A DNA stretch of 46,129 nucleotides from Calditrichota bacterium. Its GTDB lineage: Bacteria > Electryoneota > B3-LCP. The notes beneath the pieces were generated by a model. That model saw nothing but the letters and a program-made list of their open reading frames with translations. It had not been told where the DNA came from and did no database searches. The position numbers and the translations under genes are program-made. Position 1 is the stretch's first letter, and every line of letters starts with the position of its first letter. This document shows, piece after piece, positions 2,238-44,062 of this stretch. Location: positions 1 to 46,129 of the forward strand of contig JAGVQJ010000158.1 in the NCBI GenBank assembly GCA_020051775.1, written 5' to 3'.

Positions 2238-3824
2238 ATGAATATGACGATGGAAAATAATAATAATCGCAAGCTGTCCCTTTCGCGCCGCGACTTCCTT
2301 AAAAAAGCCGGAACCGGGGCTGCCGCTACACTGGCGGCGCAACCATTCGCTTCGTTGTTGTTGAATGGGAAACAAGCTTTAGCCGCCGGGATTGCCAAAT
2401 CCGAATCTCAGCTTGACTCCGACACCATCCGCAAGCTGCTGGAAATCGCTTTATCGCGAGGCGGTGAGTTCGCCGAAGTGTACGTCGAGTACACGGCCAA
2501 CAGCAGTCTGTCCCTGACCGAAGAACGCATTCGCCAGGCCAATTACGGTATTGTGCAGGGGGTGGGCATTCGGGTGCTGAAGGGCGCTCAGACCGGTTAC
2601 GGTTACAGCGACGATTTCAGCTTTGAAAGCCTGAAAAGCGCCGCGCAGGTGGCTGCTTTCATCGCCGACCAGCCAAGCATTACGACGCAACCCCTGCGGT
2701 TGACTGCGAAAAAATATCCCAACGTCTCACCCATAAAAGCGAATCCCGATCAGGTGGCGGTCAAAACCAAGACTGACCTGCTATACCGTGCCAATTCCAC
2801 CGCCCGTGGAGCCGATGGCCGCGTGACTCAGGTGGATGCCTCCTATGCGGACTCCATTTCGCTGCTCACCATCGCCAATTCCGAAGGGCTGCTGACTTAT
2901 GATGAACGCGCACTATACCGTCTGAATGTCAGTGTAGTCACCGAAGCGGGCGACCGGCGCGAGAGCGGCTATCACGGCGGAGGCGGCAGATTGGGATTTG
3001 AACTGTTCGAGACCTTCACTCCTGAACAGGCGGCTAAAGAAGCCGTGCGTCAGGCCGCTGTCAATCTGGAGTCGGTGGACGCCCCCGCCGGTCCCAATGT
3101 CGTAGTGCTGGGCAACGGCTGGGCAGGCATCCTGCTGCATGAAGCCATCGGTCACGGCCTGGAAGCCGACTTCAATCGCAAGAAGACCTCGCTGTTCACC
3201 GACCGCATTGGTCAACGCGTGGCCTCCGATCTGGTCACGGTGATAGATGAAGGCAACATCCCCCATCGGCGCGGTTCGCTGACGGTGGATGATGAAGGCA
3301 CCCCGACGCGCCAGAATGTGCTGATCGAGAACGGCATCCTGCGCAGCTACATGACCGACCGGCTGAATGCCAAGCTCATGGGCATGGAAATGACCGGAAA
3401 CGGCCGCCGTGAATCTTTCAATTTTATGCCGGTGCCTCGCATGACCAATACCTACATGCTGGGTGGTGAGAGTACGCCCGAAGAGATCATTGGCTCGGTA
3501 TCGAAAGGCCTGTATGCCAAGGCCTTCAGCGGCGGACAGGTGGACATTTCCAACGGTAATTTCGTGTTCAATGTCACCGAAGGCTACTTGATTGAGAACG
3601 GCAAAGTGACCGCTCCGGTTAAAGGGGCCACGCTGATAGGCATCGGGCCTGAAGTGCTGACCAAAGTGGAGATGGTGGGCAATGACTTCTCCTTAGACAC
3701 CGGTGTCGGCACCTGCGGCAAGGCCGGACAGGGCGTGCCAGTGGGCGTCGGCCAACCGCATGTGAAAATTTCCGAAATCACCGTGGGGGGGACTTCGGTT
3801 CGAGGCCGCAGCATGACCGGGTAA
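2238..3824 (+). CDS. tldD: TldD-like metallopeptidase with a predicted Tat signal peptide (ORF opens at 2196; start probably 2238-2250)
   Basis: HEAIGHGLEAD (HExxxH) motif, GNGRRESF and C-terminal VGVGQPHVKISEITVGG typical of TldD; N-terminal SRRDFLKKAGTGAAATLAAQPFASLLL twin-arginine motif. Confidence 0.88.
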   Translation: MNMTMENNNNRKLSLSRRDFLKKAGTGAAATLAAQPFASLLLNGKQALAAGIAKSESQLDSDTIRKLLEIALSRGGEFAEVYVEYTANSSLSLTEERIRQANYGIVQGVGIRVLKGAQTGYGYSDDFSFESLKSAAQVAAFIADQPSITTQPLRLTAKKYPNVSPIKANPDQVAVKTKTDLLYRANSTARGADGRVTQVDASYADSISLLTIANSEGLLTYDERALYRLNVSVVTEAGDRRESGYHGGGGRLGFELFETFTPEQAAKEAVRQAAVNLESVDAPAGPNVVVLGNGWAGILLHEAIGHGLEADFNRKKTSLFTDRIGQRVASDLVTVIDEGNIPHRRGSLTVDDEGTPTRQNVLIENGILRSYMTDRLNAKLMGMEMTGNGRRESFNFMPVPRMTNTYMLGGESTPEEIIGSVSKGLYAKAFSGGQVDISNGNFVFNVTEGYLIENGKVTAPVKGATLIGIGPEVLTKVEMVGNDFSLDTGVGTCGKAGQGVPVGVGQPHVKISEITVGGTSVRGRSMTG

Positions 3825-26483: not shown

Positions 26484-26512
26484 AAAACCCGCCCAGGTCT
26501 TGAGCGGGTTTT
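26484..26512. terminator. Bidirectional Rho-independent terminator
   Basis: AAAACCCGC-CCAGGTCTTGA-GCGGGTTTT between the convergent phzF and the minus-strand gene. Confidence 0.8.
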
Positions 26513-26533: not shown

Positions 26534-27808
26534 TTATCGGTTCATATCCGCTTGGATCTCTTTAATTCTCTGCTCAAAATCATCATTCTTTCCTCCAACA
26601 AGCTGTAAGGCTTTTTCTTCTGCAGCGATGGCCTCAGCGTATTGCCCCTGTTTCCACAAGACCATGCTCAGGGTATCCCACACGTTGGCGTCATCCTTCA
26701 GGACTATAGATTTGCGGGCCGCCGCTTCGGCGCTGGCCAAATTCTTGCCTGCCAATGCCCAGAACCAGGCGTATTGGTTCAGCATTATGGCCTCGTCCTG
26801 GAACTTATCCGCGACAGCCTGACCGTAGACCTCCAGAGCTCGATCATCCCTTCCGTTCGTCAACAGTAGAGTCGCGTAAGCTTCCGTTAGTCTGCTGTTG
26901 AATTCATCTGGGTGACTCTGAAAATGCTTTTCTCCCGCTGCAATGCCCTGTTCGACGTCTAACTTCAGTTCAGAACAGGCTAGAACATATCCGGCAAGGA
27001 GCGTAGGATCATCGGGATAGCGCTTCATGAGTTGGCGATAAATATCGAAAACCCCTGCCTTCTTTTCCGAATTGTAGAAGTAGTTGTTCAATCTCCAGAG
27101 CGCGGGTTCTCGCAGTCTGGTTTTGGGAAACTCATCCAGAAATTTCAATATCGCCTGGGGTTCTGAATAGATGCTGGTATATTTAGCGTATTCGTAAGCG
27201 GTGGTTTCCCAATTGGCGATCTTCACCGAGAGCTTACGAGCCTTTTTCGGTCGTGCCAGTATTTTTTCGCTTAACTCGCGCATGGTTTTATAATCATCGC
27301 GATCTTCATATTTGTACGCCAGCTCAGCCATGACTTGCAGGTTATCGGGGTCTTTCTGTAGACTGCGCAACAATGCCAGGAATGTATGTTCTCCGGTTAT
27401 AGCTTTCTCGATCCTGCCCGAGAATTTGTCCGCCGGTGGGCCGTAGCCGACCACCCGGTCAATCTCTTCGCCGTCGGCGGTGGCGATGAGAACCGTAGGA
27501 GTGGCATGAACGTTGAACTGACGGTAGAGCCAATCACCGAGGGCGGTCGAATCCCCGGTGCGAACGGCGTGGAGGGGTATATAATGGCTGGTGAGGAAGT
27601 CGGCAAACTTTTCGTTTCCAAAGTACTGCTCATCGAGCAGTTGGCAGGCGCTTCAACCGGCGCCATAAAAATCCACCAAAATCAATTTATTCTCCAATGC
27701 CGCCAGGGTCTTGGCAGCGTCAAAAGTTCCTTCATACCAGTTAACGGCCTGGCAAACCGGCACCGACACACATAGAAATAGGGCGGCGCTGGTAATCATT
27801 CTTTTCAT
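26534..27808 (-). CDS. Putative selenoprotein: secreted thioredoxin-like domain (UxxC, Sec52 at TGA 27653-27655) fused to TPR repeats
   Basis: Reverse-strand translation from ATG 27808: MKRMITSAALFLCVSVPVCQAVNWYEGTFDAAKTLAALENKLILVDFYGAG[TGA]SACQLLDEQYFGNEKFADFLTSHYIPLHAVRTGDSTALGDWLYRQFNVHATPTVLIATADGEEIDRVVGYGPP... continuing in the same frame into the 306-aa track ORF (TPR region). The track ORF starts only at the first GTG after the TGA. Confidence 0.8.
27618..27644 (-). promoter_or_regulatory. Candidate bacterial SECIS element
   Basis: Minus strand after TGA: AGCGCCTGCCAA-CTGCTC-GAT-GAGCAG-TACTTTGG. Perfect 6-bp stem (27626-27640), loop starting with G, 18 nt after the TGA, plus a lower CCAA/TTGG stem. 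Confidence 0.65.
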
Positions 27809-27951
27809 AGCGACTCCTTTGGTCGTGTTTGTGATTCAAAAGGAATATACTTAATCACAGGAGTAAACACAAGGGAAAAAACACCTATACTGCTTGACTT
27901 TCGCAGCTAACCGGGTTAATTTTACCACTATATAGTTTTGGGAGAAGTTTC

Positions 27952-28591: not shown

Positions 28592-29251
28592 TCAGAGTGA
28601 TTTTTTGCTGAGATACCAATCCGTGATTTCGATGCCTTTGGTTTTTACCCTCTCCTCGGCGGCTTCGATGGTCAGCGGGGGCGGGATGATGACCATATCA
28701 CCCGGTTTCCAGTTGGCTGGAGTGGCCACGCCTTTGGCGTCGGAAGTCTGCAAAGCGGTGATCAGGCGCAGGATCTCATCCATATTACGACCTGTGGTCA
28801 GCGGGTAATAGATCATAGCGCGGATGTTCTGTTTATCGTCAATGACGAAGACGCAGCGGCTGGTCTCGGTCTTGCTCTCGGCCATGGAAACCATGCCGTA
28901 GAGATTCGCCACTTTGCGATCCAGATCGGCGATGACCGGGAAGGGGATCTTGACGTTCAATTTTTCTTCGATGTTGCGTACCCAGGCGATGTGGGCATAG
29001 ACGCTGTCAATGCTCAGGCCCAGCAATTCGCAGTTCAGCTTTTTCAGTTCCGGGTAAATCTTGGCGAAGCCAATGAATTCTGTTGTGCAAACCGGAGTGA
29101 AATCAGCCGGATGCGAGAACAGGATCAGCCAACTGCCACTATAATCTTCCAGGCGTAACGTACCATGAGTAGTTATTGCTTCAAATTGCGGAGCGGGAGC
29201 GCCCAGTTTGGGCAAGCCAACTGGCGCAGCGATGTTGGTATTATCGGACAT
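28592..29251 (-). CDS. Peroxiredoxin (AhpC/TSA, Prx6-like)
   Basis: GSWLILFSHPADFTPVCTTEFIGFAKIYPEL; start at ATG 29251 (MSDNTNIAAPVGLPKLGAPAPQFEAIT). Confidence 0.92.
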   Translation of the reverse strand: MSDNTNIAAPVGLPKLGAPAPQFEAITTHGTLRLEDYSGSWLILFSHPADFTPVCTTEFIGFAKIYPELKKLNCELLGLSIDSVYAHIAWVRNIEEKLNVKIPFPVIADLDRKVANLYGMVSMAESKTETSRCVFVIDDKQNIRAMIYYPLTTGRNMDEILRLITALQTSDAKGVATPANWKPGDMVIIPPPLTIEAAEERVKTKGIEITDWYLSKKSL

Positions 29252-29357
29252 GGTGAAACCTCGGTTGGGGCTTAGAGAGTGAGATAGTATGATTGTGCTT
29301 CTGTCAAATAATAACGTGAAATTTATCGCAACGTTGGTCATTGCTTGAAAGAGAATC

Positions 29358-30023
29358 ATGGATCCTTACGTCACCGTTCAAACCCTGGCCGCCCGAACCC
29401 AAGTCTGGCTGGAACGCATTGCCGCTTATAACCGGCATCCCCTGGAGCTGAACCGCGGCCATGCGGCGCTATTGGTCGTGGATATGCAGCGCTTCTTCCT
29501 TGATCCCGCTTCCCCTACCTACACTTGCGGCGGCGCCGCCATAATGCCTAATGTGCAAAAAATGATCGCACGTTTCCGGCGGGTCGGGAGGCCGGTGATC
29601 TTCACCCGCCATGTCCACAATCCGGATATGTCGGATGCCGGCATCATGGGTTGGTGGTGGGAAGGTATATGCCGCGAAGGTTCGCCGGAATCGGAAGTCC
29701 ACGATGATCTGGCTCCGCTACCCGGTGAAAAACAGATCCTGAAGCATCGCTATTCAGCGTTCTATAACACCGACCTGGAAACCGTGCTCCGCTGCCTGAA
29801 AATTGAAGACCTGGTCATCGCCGGTCTGATGACCAACCTCTGCTGCGAATCTACGGCCCGCGATGCGTATTTCCGAGATTATCGCGTGTTCTTCCCCGCC
29901 GACGGCAATGGCAGCGTCAACGAGGAGATGCATCTCGCCAGTTTGATGAACATCGCCTATGGTTTCGGGTGGGTGTTGAAAGCCGAAGAGATCATCACCA
30001 AGTTGGAAAATCCCAACGCATGA
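29358..30023 (+). CDS. Isochorismatase-like cysteine hydrolase
   Basis: HAALLVVDMQRFFLDP; KHRYSAFYNTDLETVLRCLKIEDLVIAGLMTNLCCESTARDAYFRDYRVFF. Confidence 0.92.
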   Translation: MDPYVTVQTLAARTQVWLERIAAYNRHPLELNRGHAALLVVDMQRFFLDPASPTYTCGGAAIMPNVQKMIARFRRVGRPVIFTRHVHNPDMSDAGIMGWWWEGICREGSPESEVHDDLAPLPGEKQILKHRYSAFYNTDLETVLRCLKIEDLVIAGLMTNLCCESTARDAYFRDYRVFFPADGNGSVNEEMHLASLMNIAYGFGWVLKAEEIITKLENPNA

Positions 30024-40239: not shown

Positions 40240-40669
40240 ATAATTATAAAAAAAATCACTTGACATTATCCTTATTATTTCATACATTAAAGCACTTTAT
40301 ATTTATTCACTTCGCGCTGGCGGCACTTTTTTAAGTTCCGGTGGCAGTTATGATATCGGATATTAATAGGTTAAATGGCGCCATCACTCCCATTATCGCC
40401 TCGGTAAATATTTACGCACTACCTGCCTTGATTCCTGCAGCCCCAGGTCCTTACCAGGAAATCCTTATATCAAAATAGCAGTTCGATCCCCTCTTCCGGG
40501 GGTTTTTTATTTCCTACACCCAAGACGGATTATTCTAAAAGAATAGAAGAAACCTGCCCTTTCGTTATTGTAGGAGGCGCTATGAACGACACGGTGAAAC
40601 CTTTTATGTGGAAAACCTCGTTCCCTCTTGCTGCTACATGGAAAATTTGAACACTCAAAGGAGGTCACT

Positions 40670-43600
40670 ATGTTCAGGAAAATCTCAGTTGTATTGATCT
40701 ACCTGGCGCTGGCGACGGCGCACGTTTCGGCTCAGACCATCATACCCCCGGGAAATGTATCCGGTACCTGGACGGCAACAGGTTCGCCTTATTTAATCAT
40801 GGGTGAGATCACCGTGCCGACCGGTCAAACCTTAACCATCCAACCCGAGGTGGAGGTTATATTTCAAGGGCATTACAAGTTCATTATCAACGGCTACCTG
40901 GAAGCCATCGGTACGGAAACGGATTCCATCCTCTTCACTGCGGCGGATACCGCCATAGGTTGGCACAGCCTCCGCTTCGTTAATGCGCCTGACAGCAGCC
41001 ATCTCGCCTATTGCATCGTGCAGTATGGAAAGGCCACAGGAGCCACCATAGACGATATGATCGGAGGCGGTATAGCCTGCTTTACTTCCAATCCGGTCAT
41101 CAGCCACTGTCTCATCCGCTGGAATTATGCCTATATGTTCGGGGGCGGAACGGTTTCCGTGTACGGCGGGAATCCCATTTTCAACTACTGTACCATCAGT
41201 GAAAATACGGCTTATCAGAATGCTGGAGTTGGTGGAGGATGGATTACCGCCCCGCATTACAATTATTGCACCATTAGCGGAAACACGGCCACTTACGTTG
41301 GCGGTGGTGTTGGCGGCGGATATGGAGCAGATCCGACCTTCGATCATTGCACCATCAGCGGAAATTCGGCTGGGTCCAGTGCTGGTGTATGCTATGGAGC
41401 GGGAGCCAATCCAATTCTCACTTACTGCACGGTCAGCGGCAATTCTGCCACGGATTATCGCGGCGGAATTGGATTGGGAACGGATTGCGGCGGTTTGATG
41501 GACCATTGTATCATAAGTGGAAATACTGCGACCTGGCATGGCGGCATTGGTGTTGGCCTTGTCTGCACAACGGATATCACGAACTGCACCATTTGCGGGA
41601 ATACCGCCGACAGCTCAGGCGGCGGAATAGCTCTCGTGGATAATTATAGCGGTACCATTGATAGTTGCCTCATTACCGGTAATTCCGCCGGATGGAATGG
41701 CGGAGGTATTTTCTGTATTGGCGCCACTGACAGCGCCACCATCAGCCATTGCGCCATCAGCGATAATACGGCAGGGAATTACGGCGGCGGAATCGCTTGT
41801 GTGGATAGCGCCAATCCGACCATCGAATACTGCACCTTAAGCAGCAACGAAGCCGATTCCTGCGGCGGCGGAATTGCTTGCAGGAATTCTGACCCCTTCG
41901 TTGACCACTGCACGATCACCGGCAATGATGCTGCAGTATATGGCGGTGGAACGGTCAGCAGTTATGGTTCCGCTCCCACCTACAGCTACTGCGACATATC
42001 CGCCAACACAGCTCTTATTCATGGCGGTTGCGGCGGCGGTTGGGAGAATGCTTCCCCTACCTACCTCCACTGTACCATCAGTAATAATTCGGCTATATAT
42101 GCCGGTGGTGGTATGGGTCATGGCGAGAACGCCAGCCCGACCATCAGCTACTGTACTATAAGCGGAAACGCAGCCGGCATGGCTGGTACCGGTGGTGTCG
42201 GCTTTTACTATGGTTGCCATGGTTCCATGGACAACTGCACTATCACCGGGAATTCAGCTCCAGGCGCTCTCGGGGGAGGAATTTCCATCGCTTATGTAGC
42301 TGACCCGATTATAAGCAACTGCACCATCACTGGCAATACTTCTACTGGTGGAATCGGAGGTGGAATTATTGTCGCGTACGTTGCTAATCCGACCATCAGC
42401 AACTGTACTATCTCCGGGAATTCCGCTACCAATGGCGGCGGTATCGCCGCTGATAGCGCTAATCCCACCATCGAAAATTGCACCATCAACGACAATGAAG
42501 CGGATTCCTCCAGTGGCGGTATTTGGCTCATATACAGCGATGCCGTCATTGACAGTTGCACCGTCAGTGGAAATACCGCCGATTTTAGTTACGGTGGAAT
42601 CGGCTTCAAGCATTCCAGCCCGGTGATAACGAACTGCTTGATTGAAAATAATTCCGCCTTAGGTTCAGGGATTGGCTATGGAGGCGGGGGACTCGGTTAT
42701 GCATACAGTAGCAACTCAGTCATAAACAACTGTAATTTCATCGGCAATATGACTTACGGGGTTGGCGGTGGTCTGGTGGTATCTCAGGTGGGTACCAGCG
42801 GAACCATAAGTCATTGCACCTTCACCAACGACTCGGCGGCATGGGGCGGGGCTATCCTCGTAGGTATGGGAAGCATGCCGACCATCGAACGCTGCACCAT
42901 TCAGGGAAACGCCGCCGGCGCCTACGGTGGCGGACTGCATTACGCTTACGGTGGCGGCGGCATCACCAGGCATTGTACCATCAGTGGCAATCACTCGAGT
43001 ACTGGCGGCAGTGGCATTGACGTATATGGTTGTTTTCCGACCATTAAAAACACCATAGTAGAAGGAAACACCGGAGGAATTGCTGGTGTTTATTCCACCA
43101 ATGCCATCACCATTAACTACGGTGATTTCTGGAACAATCAAAACGCAAATTTCGCTGGCAACGTGTCTCCCGGTATCGGTCAGCAAGTCAGCGTTAACAT
43201 CAACGGGGACTCGTGCGATTGTTATCATAACATCTTCCTGGATCCCCTGTTCGTCGCTCCGGGTAACTTTCATCTGCAGGATGATTCTCCCTGCATTGAT
43301 GCCGGTGATCCAGCGTTGCCCTGTGACCCGGACGGAACCATCGCGGATATCGGCCGCTACTATTTTGATCAACCGATTCCGAATTTGACGATCACTCTGA
43401 CACCCGTCAATCCTCCCATCGTCATCCCCGCTTCCGGTGGCAGTTTCACTTTCGACGCCACCATGACGAACAACGAGGCGATTTCGGAGAATTTTGATGT
43501 TTGGATTATGGTCAGACTGCCCAACCAATCGTGGTACGGCCCGGTTTTGGGACCCATAAATCTGACCTTGCCTGCAGGGGGCACGTTAACTCGCCAGCGC

Positions 43601-44062
43601 ATTCAAAATGTACCGGGCAACGCGCCGGCGGGATCTTATTGGTACGAAGCCCGCGTGGGAGATCATCCCACGGTCATCTGGGATACCAGCGGATTCGCCT
43701 TCACCAAAACGGTCGCGGACGATGGCATTCCCGTGGATGACTGGAGTTGCACAGGTCAAAGCTTCGAGCAGGAGGCAACCATTACGGCTTCCACCCCCCA
43801 GAGCTTCACTTTGAAAGGAGCCTGCCCCAATCCCTTCAATCCGTACACCAATATCAGCTTCGCGTTGCCGGAAGATTCCCGGGTTCACCTGGCGATCTTC
43901 GACGTAACCGGGCGACAAGTGGCCTCTCTGGTGGAGGGCTGGCGGGAGGCGGGAACTCACGTCGTCACCTTCGATGGATCGAACTTAGCTTCAGGTGTAT
44001 ACATTTACTGCATGAGAGCGGGCGCGTTTATCGCCAGCGAAAAGATGGTGCTGGTCAAGTAG
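40670..44062 (+). CDS. Large right-handed beta-helix repeat protein with C-terminal T9SS-type-A-like sorting domain
   Basis: AAGGAGG just before ATG 40670; signal peptide; ~30 repeats of 'NCTISGNxAxxxGGGI'; C-terminus CPNPFNPYTNISFALPEDSRVHLAIFDVTGRQVASLVEGWREAGTHVVTFDGSNLASGVYIYCMRAGAFIASEKMVLVK. Confidence 0.9.
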   Translation: MFRKISVVLIYLALATAHVSAQTIIPPGNVSGTWTATGSPYLIMGEITVPTGQTLTIQPEVEVIFQGHYKFIINGYLEAIGTETDSILFTAADTAIGWHSLRFVNAPDSSHLAYCIVQYGKATGATIDDMIGGGIACFTSNPVISHCLIRWNYAYMFGGGTVSVYGGNPIFNYCTISENTAYQNAGVGGGWITAPHYNYCTISGNTATYVGGGVGGGYGADPTFDHCTISGNSAGSSAGVCYGAGANPILTYCTVSGNSATDYRGGIGLGTDCGGLMDHCIISGNTATWHGGIGVGLVCTTDITNCTICGNTADSSGGGIALVDNYSGTIDSCLITGNSAGWNGGGIFCIGATDSATISHCAISDNTAGNYGGGIACVDSANPTIEYCTLSSNEADSCGGGIACRNSDPFVDHCTITGNDAAVYGGGTVSSYGSAPTYSYCDISANTALIHGGCGGGWENASPTYLHCTISNNSAIYAGGGMGHGENASPTISYCTISGNAAGMAGTGGVGFYYGCHGSMDNCTITGNSAPGALGGGISIAYVADPIISNCTITGNTSTGGIGGGIIVAYVANPTISNCTISGNSATNGGGIAADSANPTIENCTINDNEADSSSGGIWLIYSDAVIDSCTVSGNTADFSYGGIGFKHSSPVITNCLIENNSALGSGIGYGGGGLGYAYSSNSVINNCNFIGNMTYGVGGGLVVSQVGTSGTISHCTFTNDSAAWGGAILVGMGSMPTIERCTIQGNAAGAYGGGLHYAYGGGGITRHCTISGNHSSTGGSGIDVYGCFPTIKNTIVEGNTGGIAGVYSTNAITINYGDFWNNQNANFAGNVSPGIGQQVSVNINGDSCDCYHNIFLDPLFVAPGNFHLQDDSPCIDAGDPALPCDPDGTIADIGRYYFDQPIPNLTITLTPVNPPIVIPASGGSFTFDATMTNNEAISENFDVWIMVRLPNQSWYGPVLGPINLTLPAGGTLTRQRIQNVPGNAPAGSYWYEARVGDHPTVIWDTSGFAFTKTVADDGIPVDDWSCTGQSFEQEATITASTPQSFTLKGACPNPFNPYTNISFALPEDSRVHLAIFDVTGRQVASLVEGWREAGTHVVTFDGSNLASGVYIYCMRAGAFIASEKMVLVK

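Follow-up and report, generated by a model that had tools for sequence, protein, structure and literature searches.

A thioredoxin-TPR protein with a probable selenocysteine codon in a Calditrichota bacterium, and the double selenocysteine machinery of its family

A TGA codon that interrupts a thioredoxin motif exactly where a catalytic cysteine is expected raises the question whether it ends the gene or encodes selenocysteine (Sec). Such a codon is found on the minus strand of contig JAGVQJ010000158.1 of a Calditrichota bacterium (assembly GCA_020051775.1), of which 46,129 nucleotides, here called the window, were analysed. Our answer is that UGA52 is most probably decoded as Sec; from the sequence evidence described below we put the probability of this decoding at about 95%.

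Gene, domains and predicted structure

One reading frame runs from an ATG at 27808 to a TAA at 26536-26534 and is interrupted only once, by the TGA at codon 52. Re-reading of this frame agreed to the base and to the residue with the coordinates and residues given in an earlier, sequence-only reading of the locus. Read-through results in a product of 424 aa, which is composed, from N- to C-terminus, of a hydrophobic leader, a thioredoxin domain and a TPR tail; the candidate Sec stands in the motif LILVDFYGAG-U-SACQLL and the cis-Pro segment reads NVHATPTVLI. Without read-through, translation table 11 yields just a 306-aa ORF that starts with the GTG at 27454 and does not include the active site. 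The features are collected in Table 1, including a possible terminator stem that was not taken in by our terminator scan, because its 11-nt loop exceeds the limits of the scan. A phage origin was considered and dropped, the phage collection giving no match.

The thioredoxin domain reaches 44 bits with PF13098 (Thioredoxin_2; Pfam cut-off 27), and both the UxxC active site (U52-S-A-C55) and the cis-Pro are present; P104 is invariant and residue 55 is Cys in every row of a 34-row alignment. AlphaFold2, which was provided with 34 window and locus sequences, modelled the whole read-through chain with a mean pLDDT of 92.6 and a pTM of 0.82. The best thioredoxin-fold structure among the matches listed is DsbD-gamma (1uc7; TMt 0.73 over 119 columns), and the top Foldseek matches are TPR proteins. 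The profile of the selenoprotein TsoB (NF045694) matches residues 19-135 with 32.6 bits, compared to a TsoB cut-off of 805.

Table 1. Features of the candidate selenoprotein gene (window positions) and of Sec-related loci in the host genome and its relatives (contig or locus positions; G000, host genome). The host selA, selB and tRNA-Sec copies bear the locus labels L047, L048, L001, L002, L009 and L010.
Feature	Position	Strand	Evidence or remark
Candidate selenoprotein CDS, 424 aa with Sec52	26537..27808	-	Frame, homologs, model; TAA stop at 26534-26536
UGA codon 52, probably read as selenocysteine	27653..27655	-	TGA or Cys codon there in 60/63 scored homologous loci
Shine-Dalgarno-like AAAGGAG	27814..27820	-	Seen directly in the sequence
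Possible terminator stem AACCCGC...GCGGGTT, then TTATT	26486..26510	-	Seen directly in the sequence
Probable cleavable signal peptide, residues 1-20	27749..27808	-	Sequence features: KR, hydrophobic stretch, small residue ahead of cleavage
SECIS-like hairpin ACTGCTC-GAT-GAGCAGT	27625..27641	-	7 bp, GAT (GAU) triloop, loop 18 nt past UGA
Thioredoxin-fold domain, about residues 24-129, U52-S-A-C55, cis-Pro P104	27422..27739	-	Pfam PF13098, model, DsbD-gamma match
TPR tail, about residues 146-403	26600..27373	-	Pfam TPR_14 and TPR_19 above cut-off; all-helical model; Foldseek
selA copies, G000	C70:27195-28562, C24:26269-27630
selB copies, G000	C7:3736-5628, C86:29411-31282
tRNA-Sec copies, G000	C151:15853-15945, C83:15692-15783
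SelD, itself a predicted Sec protein	L049, G000:C151:16064-16990	-	In-frame TGA, CAG-U-ASK
FG-GAP TGAs	L055 (G000:C151), locus positions 3776, 5587, 7249	-
Further FG-GAP loci	G000:C68:8323-9771; also L241, L247, L249

The TGA site in homologs and the hairpin behind it

A scan of the genome collection resulted in 80 homologous loci, and the codon aligned with TGA52 was scored in 63 of them: 30 have TGA and 30 TGC or TGT, two encode Ser and one encodes Val. The sequence-only reading had named homologs with Cys or Sec at this site as something to look for and had seen that the TGA replaces the N-terminal catalytic Cys, leaving UxxC; the aligned Cys codons bear this out. SURF_9 (Candidatus Zixiibacteriota, contig QZKQ01000079.1), a genome of the family of the host, an uncultured bacterium of Zixibacteria type, encodes a full-length ortholog (45% identity) in which the corresponding codon is likewise TGA (NFYSDG-U-SSC). 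A maximum-likelihood tree was built from 60 members, which belong to Zixibacteria, Neomarinimicrobia, KSB1, Gemmatimonadota, Calditrichota, Latescibacterota, Acidobacteriota and further groups; it requires 13 changes of the Sec state, no fewer than seven of which fall on well-supported branches. Three homologs in which Ser or Val takes the position of Sec or Cys (L116 at 6109, L133 at 6103 and L148 at 6085) are perhaps redox-inactive members. The TPR fusion itself is less unusual than had been assumed, exported thioredoxin-TPR proteins with Cys or Sec being widespread across the FCB group and neighbouring phyla; it is the long 424-aa form that is rare, found only in the host genome, SURF_9 and Prado141.

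The hairpin listed in Table 1 has the bSECIS features in its sequence, i.e. a position shortly 3' of the UGA and a G in the apical loop, and the folding energy of the 51-nt stretch after the UGA is unremarkable (z -1.2). When codons were re-sampled according to usage under an unchanged amino-acid sequence, only 0.5% of the synonymous recodings reached the native hairpin score (p=0.005). The same recoding test gave a median p of 0.029 for 31 Sec members versus 0.66 for 30 Cys members, a difference with a Mann-Whitney p of 7e-10 without correction for relatedness. Of seven independent pairs drawn from supported branches, 5.5 have the hairpin on the Sec side and 0.1 show the opposite, so that the relatedness-corrected test is borderline at the strict cut (median sign-test p 0.06) and gives p 0.03 at a laxer one (6.1 of 7 pairs). 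The rules for hairpin position and loop were set after sight of the gene's own hairpin, for which the Cys members serve as the control; among the 31 Sec members tested, one (L131) has no such hairpin and another (L107) just a weak one. As judged from these codon comparisons, the hairpin is under selection in Sec homologs and not in Cys homologs, and a SECIS-like element, for which the sequence-only reading had suggested a search, is present.

The conserved TGA/Cys codon, the selected hairpin and the Sec genes of the host all speak for the earlier proposal of a real Sec-containing protein of redox type. It could be objected that the assembly is of metagenome type with 196 contigs and that Cys homologs exist, which would fit a TGA that arose by a sequencing error or by decay of the codon, the gene being that of an ordinary Cys thioredoxin or a pseudogene. 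However, error and decay are excluded because TGA or Cys is shared at one codon across independent homologs and the tree: independent genomes have TGA there, the Cys forms are relatives and not corrections, and the site is identical in all TGA homologs. Moreover, the frame is free of other stops, and hairpin and Sec machinery are present, which leaves this explanation with practically no probability. Scarcely more credible is a genome-wide reassignment of UGA or another suppressor tRNA inserting Cys or some other ordinary residue. The presence of a TGA within the frame of a conserved gene would agree with it and tRNA-Sec-like tRNAs carrying other residues are known elsewhere (PMC7609411), but both tRNA-Sec genes of the host have the UCA anticodon and are accompanied by full SelA/SelB sets, and a hairpin goes with the TGA. 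Furthermore, of the 35 complete ORFs in the window (gene set of this analysis), 12 terminate with TGA, among them the two from which it had already been regarded as a normal stop.

Sec decoding is in constant competition with termination. The UGA might act as a regulated stop that releases a 51-residue peptide at low selenium and the full protein at high selenium, its chief purpose being regulation. Yet a 51-residue leader without the active site has no obvious use, and Cys homologs without any UGA retain the full protein; we regard this possibility as very improbable, if slightly less so than the two before.

A probable reductase and its known relatives

With UGA52 read as Sec, the hairpin 18 nt past the codon would recruit SelB together with Sec-tRNA, Sec would be inserted in place of termination, and the leader would export the product. 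In a selenol-disulfide exchange Sec52 would be the attacking and Cys55 the resolving residue, while the TPR tail may hold a client or partner protein. We consider an exported selenol-disulfide reductase of DsbD-gamma/Thioredoxin_2 type the most likely identity of the protein, for which we infer the direction, the electron flow and the partner; the disulfide reductase mechanism itself we regard as somewhat more likely than not. Such a reductase would have its place in the cell envelope on the DsbD-gamma/thioredoxin side and could be recharged by a membrane conduit of DsbD/CcdA type; the host encodes two DsbD_TM proteins of this type.

The strongest competing view of the function is that the protein acts chiefly as an exported chaperedoxin. 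Here, the TPR tail and thioredoxin domain of the Sec protein would hold unfolding proteins and shield their cysteines, like the cytoplasmic CnoX/YbbN. E. coli YbbN/CnoX (3qou), which is among the structural matches, has the same two kinds of domains, a thioredoxin domain followed by TPRs, and CnoX from C. crescentus also works as a reductase (PMC6282202). However, YbbN is a cytoplasmic protein without Sec whereas the protein described here looks exported, the whole-chain superposition on YbbN is poor (TM-score just 0.21/0.31, rmsd 20.7), and the thioredoxin domain is nearer to DsbD-gamma/Thioredoxin_2. We consider a chaperedoxin role unlikely, though well worth keeping in mind. As for the favoured exported reductase, its closest thioredoxin folds belong to DsbD gamma and TsoB, but neither a DsbD transmembrane domain nor a rhodanese domain is present here and just the gamma-like domain matches.

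In the window, a peroxiredoxin gene (28592-29359, minus strand) and an isochorismatase-type gene (29358-30023, plus strand) lie near the selenoprotein gene; their SURF_9 counterparts (L059, 10222-10923 and 13024-13671) are also near it, in changed order. We do not claim the peroxiredoxin as redox partner, which looks cytoplasmic though it has the same neighbourhood in SURF_9.

That Sec replaces the redox Cys in thioredoxin-like UxxC selenoproteins had been taken as established, and a 2026 inventory of 119 families (PMC13188914) indeed contains a selenoprotein named 'Thiol:disulfide interchange protein' (PF13098, UxxC, WP_011366075.1), which shares the Pfam family and the Sec in first position with the protein found here. 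A TPR-fused form is not given there, the representative being compared by its description only, and none of the 119 families is a TPR entry. Sec in a PF13098 UxxC protein is known; what appears to be new is the TPR-fused form, absent from that inventory.

Two sets of Sec genes and the FG-GAP candidates

The Sec genes whose absence would speak against the proposal, selA, selB, selD and tRNA-Sec(UCA), are all present in the host genome. It contains two copies of SelA that share 43% identity, two full-length copies of SelB that share 37%, two tRNA-Sec genes, and one SelD copy above cut-off, which was counted in the host genome only. Two SelA and two tRNA-Sec genes occur in all six searched genomes of the host's family and two full-length SelB in five of them, the sixth having one complete copy and a fragment where a contig ends; G010 and G015, from further families of the phylum, have two SelA and two SelB each. 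Because the double-set pattern recurs in six genomes, contamination is excluded. SelA of set 1 groups, with full support, with the single-copy SelA of another family (f2), and SelA of set 2 branches elsewhere; the position of set 1 is the same in the SelB tree, in which set-2 SelB is not placed firmly, so that set 2 may stem from an old duplication or from a transfer. The two types of tRNA-Sec have mean identities of 95% and 91% within and 71% between types. Two complete Sec operons have been reported for Photobacterium profundum 3TCK (PMC5330540), which likewise has two tRNA-Sec genes and full sel genes in one genome; in contrast to this one strain, six family genomes and two further families hold two divergent sets here. 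3TCK is the one published precedent that we found for a double Sec machinery, and it is not family-wide.

An all-frames search for conserved TGA codons in the sel neighbourhoods was dominated by shadow frames and, after filtering, left SelD, with a GGA-triloop hairpin at +20 in the host, and FG-GAP proteins; other candidates near sel genes, mostly antisense to tRNA-Sec, were discarded. A Sec-type formate dehydrogenase in the host was also dropped, its matches being sub-threshold and without internal stop. Three tandem FG-GAP proteins adjoin tRNA-Sec 1 and SelD, each with one TGA in the motif ISVxY(A/G)-U-C, and in the single FG-GAP protein that was scanned a Por_Secre_tail sorting domain accompanies FG-GAP_3 repeats. 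The 24 best FG-GAP matches from 46 genomes contain one TGA each and belong without exception to families f1 and f2; for most of them the TGA count alone was read, and the motif in ten copies, some of them partial. A Cys form was not seen among the close homologs in the 46 genomes, where matches without TGA are more distant FG-GAP proteins or align in the C-terminal domain alone. The FG-GAP hairpins TCCACA-GAT-TGTGGA and CCACG-GAT-CGTGG show compensatory changes. The inventory PMC13188914 has no FG-GAP or VCBS entry and our literature search gave no paper joining FG-GAP and selenoprotein, which is weak evidence as few subscription papers were covered. From their sequences, the secreted tandem FG-GAP proteins apparently represent an undescribed selenoprotein family outside the thioredoxin fold. 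In the window, the C-terminus (43397-44059) of a 1144-aa ORF (40628-44062, plus strand) matches the FG-GAP selenoprotein candidates in their C-terminal part; this shared part is probably a secretion-sorting domain.

Tentatively, and with less than even confidence, we propose that the host lineage has two parallel, mutually specific Sec machineries (SelA1/SelB1/tRNA-Sec1 and SelA2/SelB2/tRNA-Sec2, with one SelD), between which the selenoproteins may be split by SECIS type; one of the two would then serve both the thioredoxin-TPR and the FG-GAP proteins, whose hairpins share a GAT triloop at +18 to +20.

The exported thioredoxin-TPR family with its repeated Sec/Cys exchange joins the selenoproteome of uncultured phyla, in which ordinary annotation would truncate such proteins, and its matched Sec and Cys members with and without hairpin are a natural test set for SECIS evolution. 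The probable secreted FG-GAP selenoproteins point to Sec use beyond the thioredoxin fold. In our view, the double Sec machinery of the host is of greater interest than the thioredoxin-TPR gene itself: in a bacterial family with two divergent Sec machineries, the orthogonality of two Sec-decoding systems in one cell becomes directly testable.
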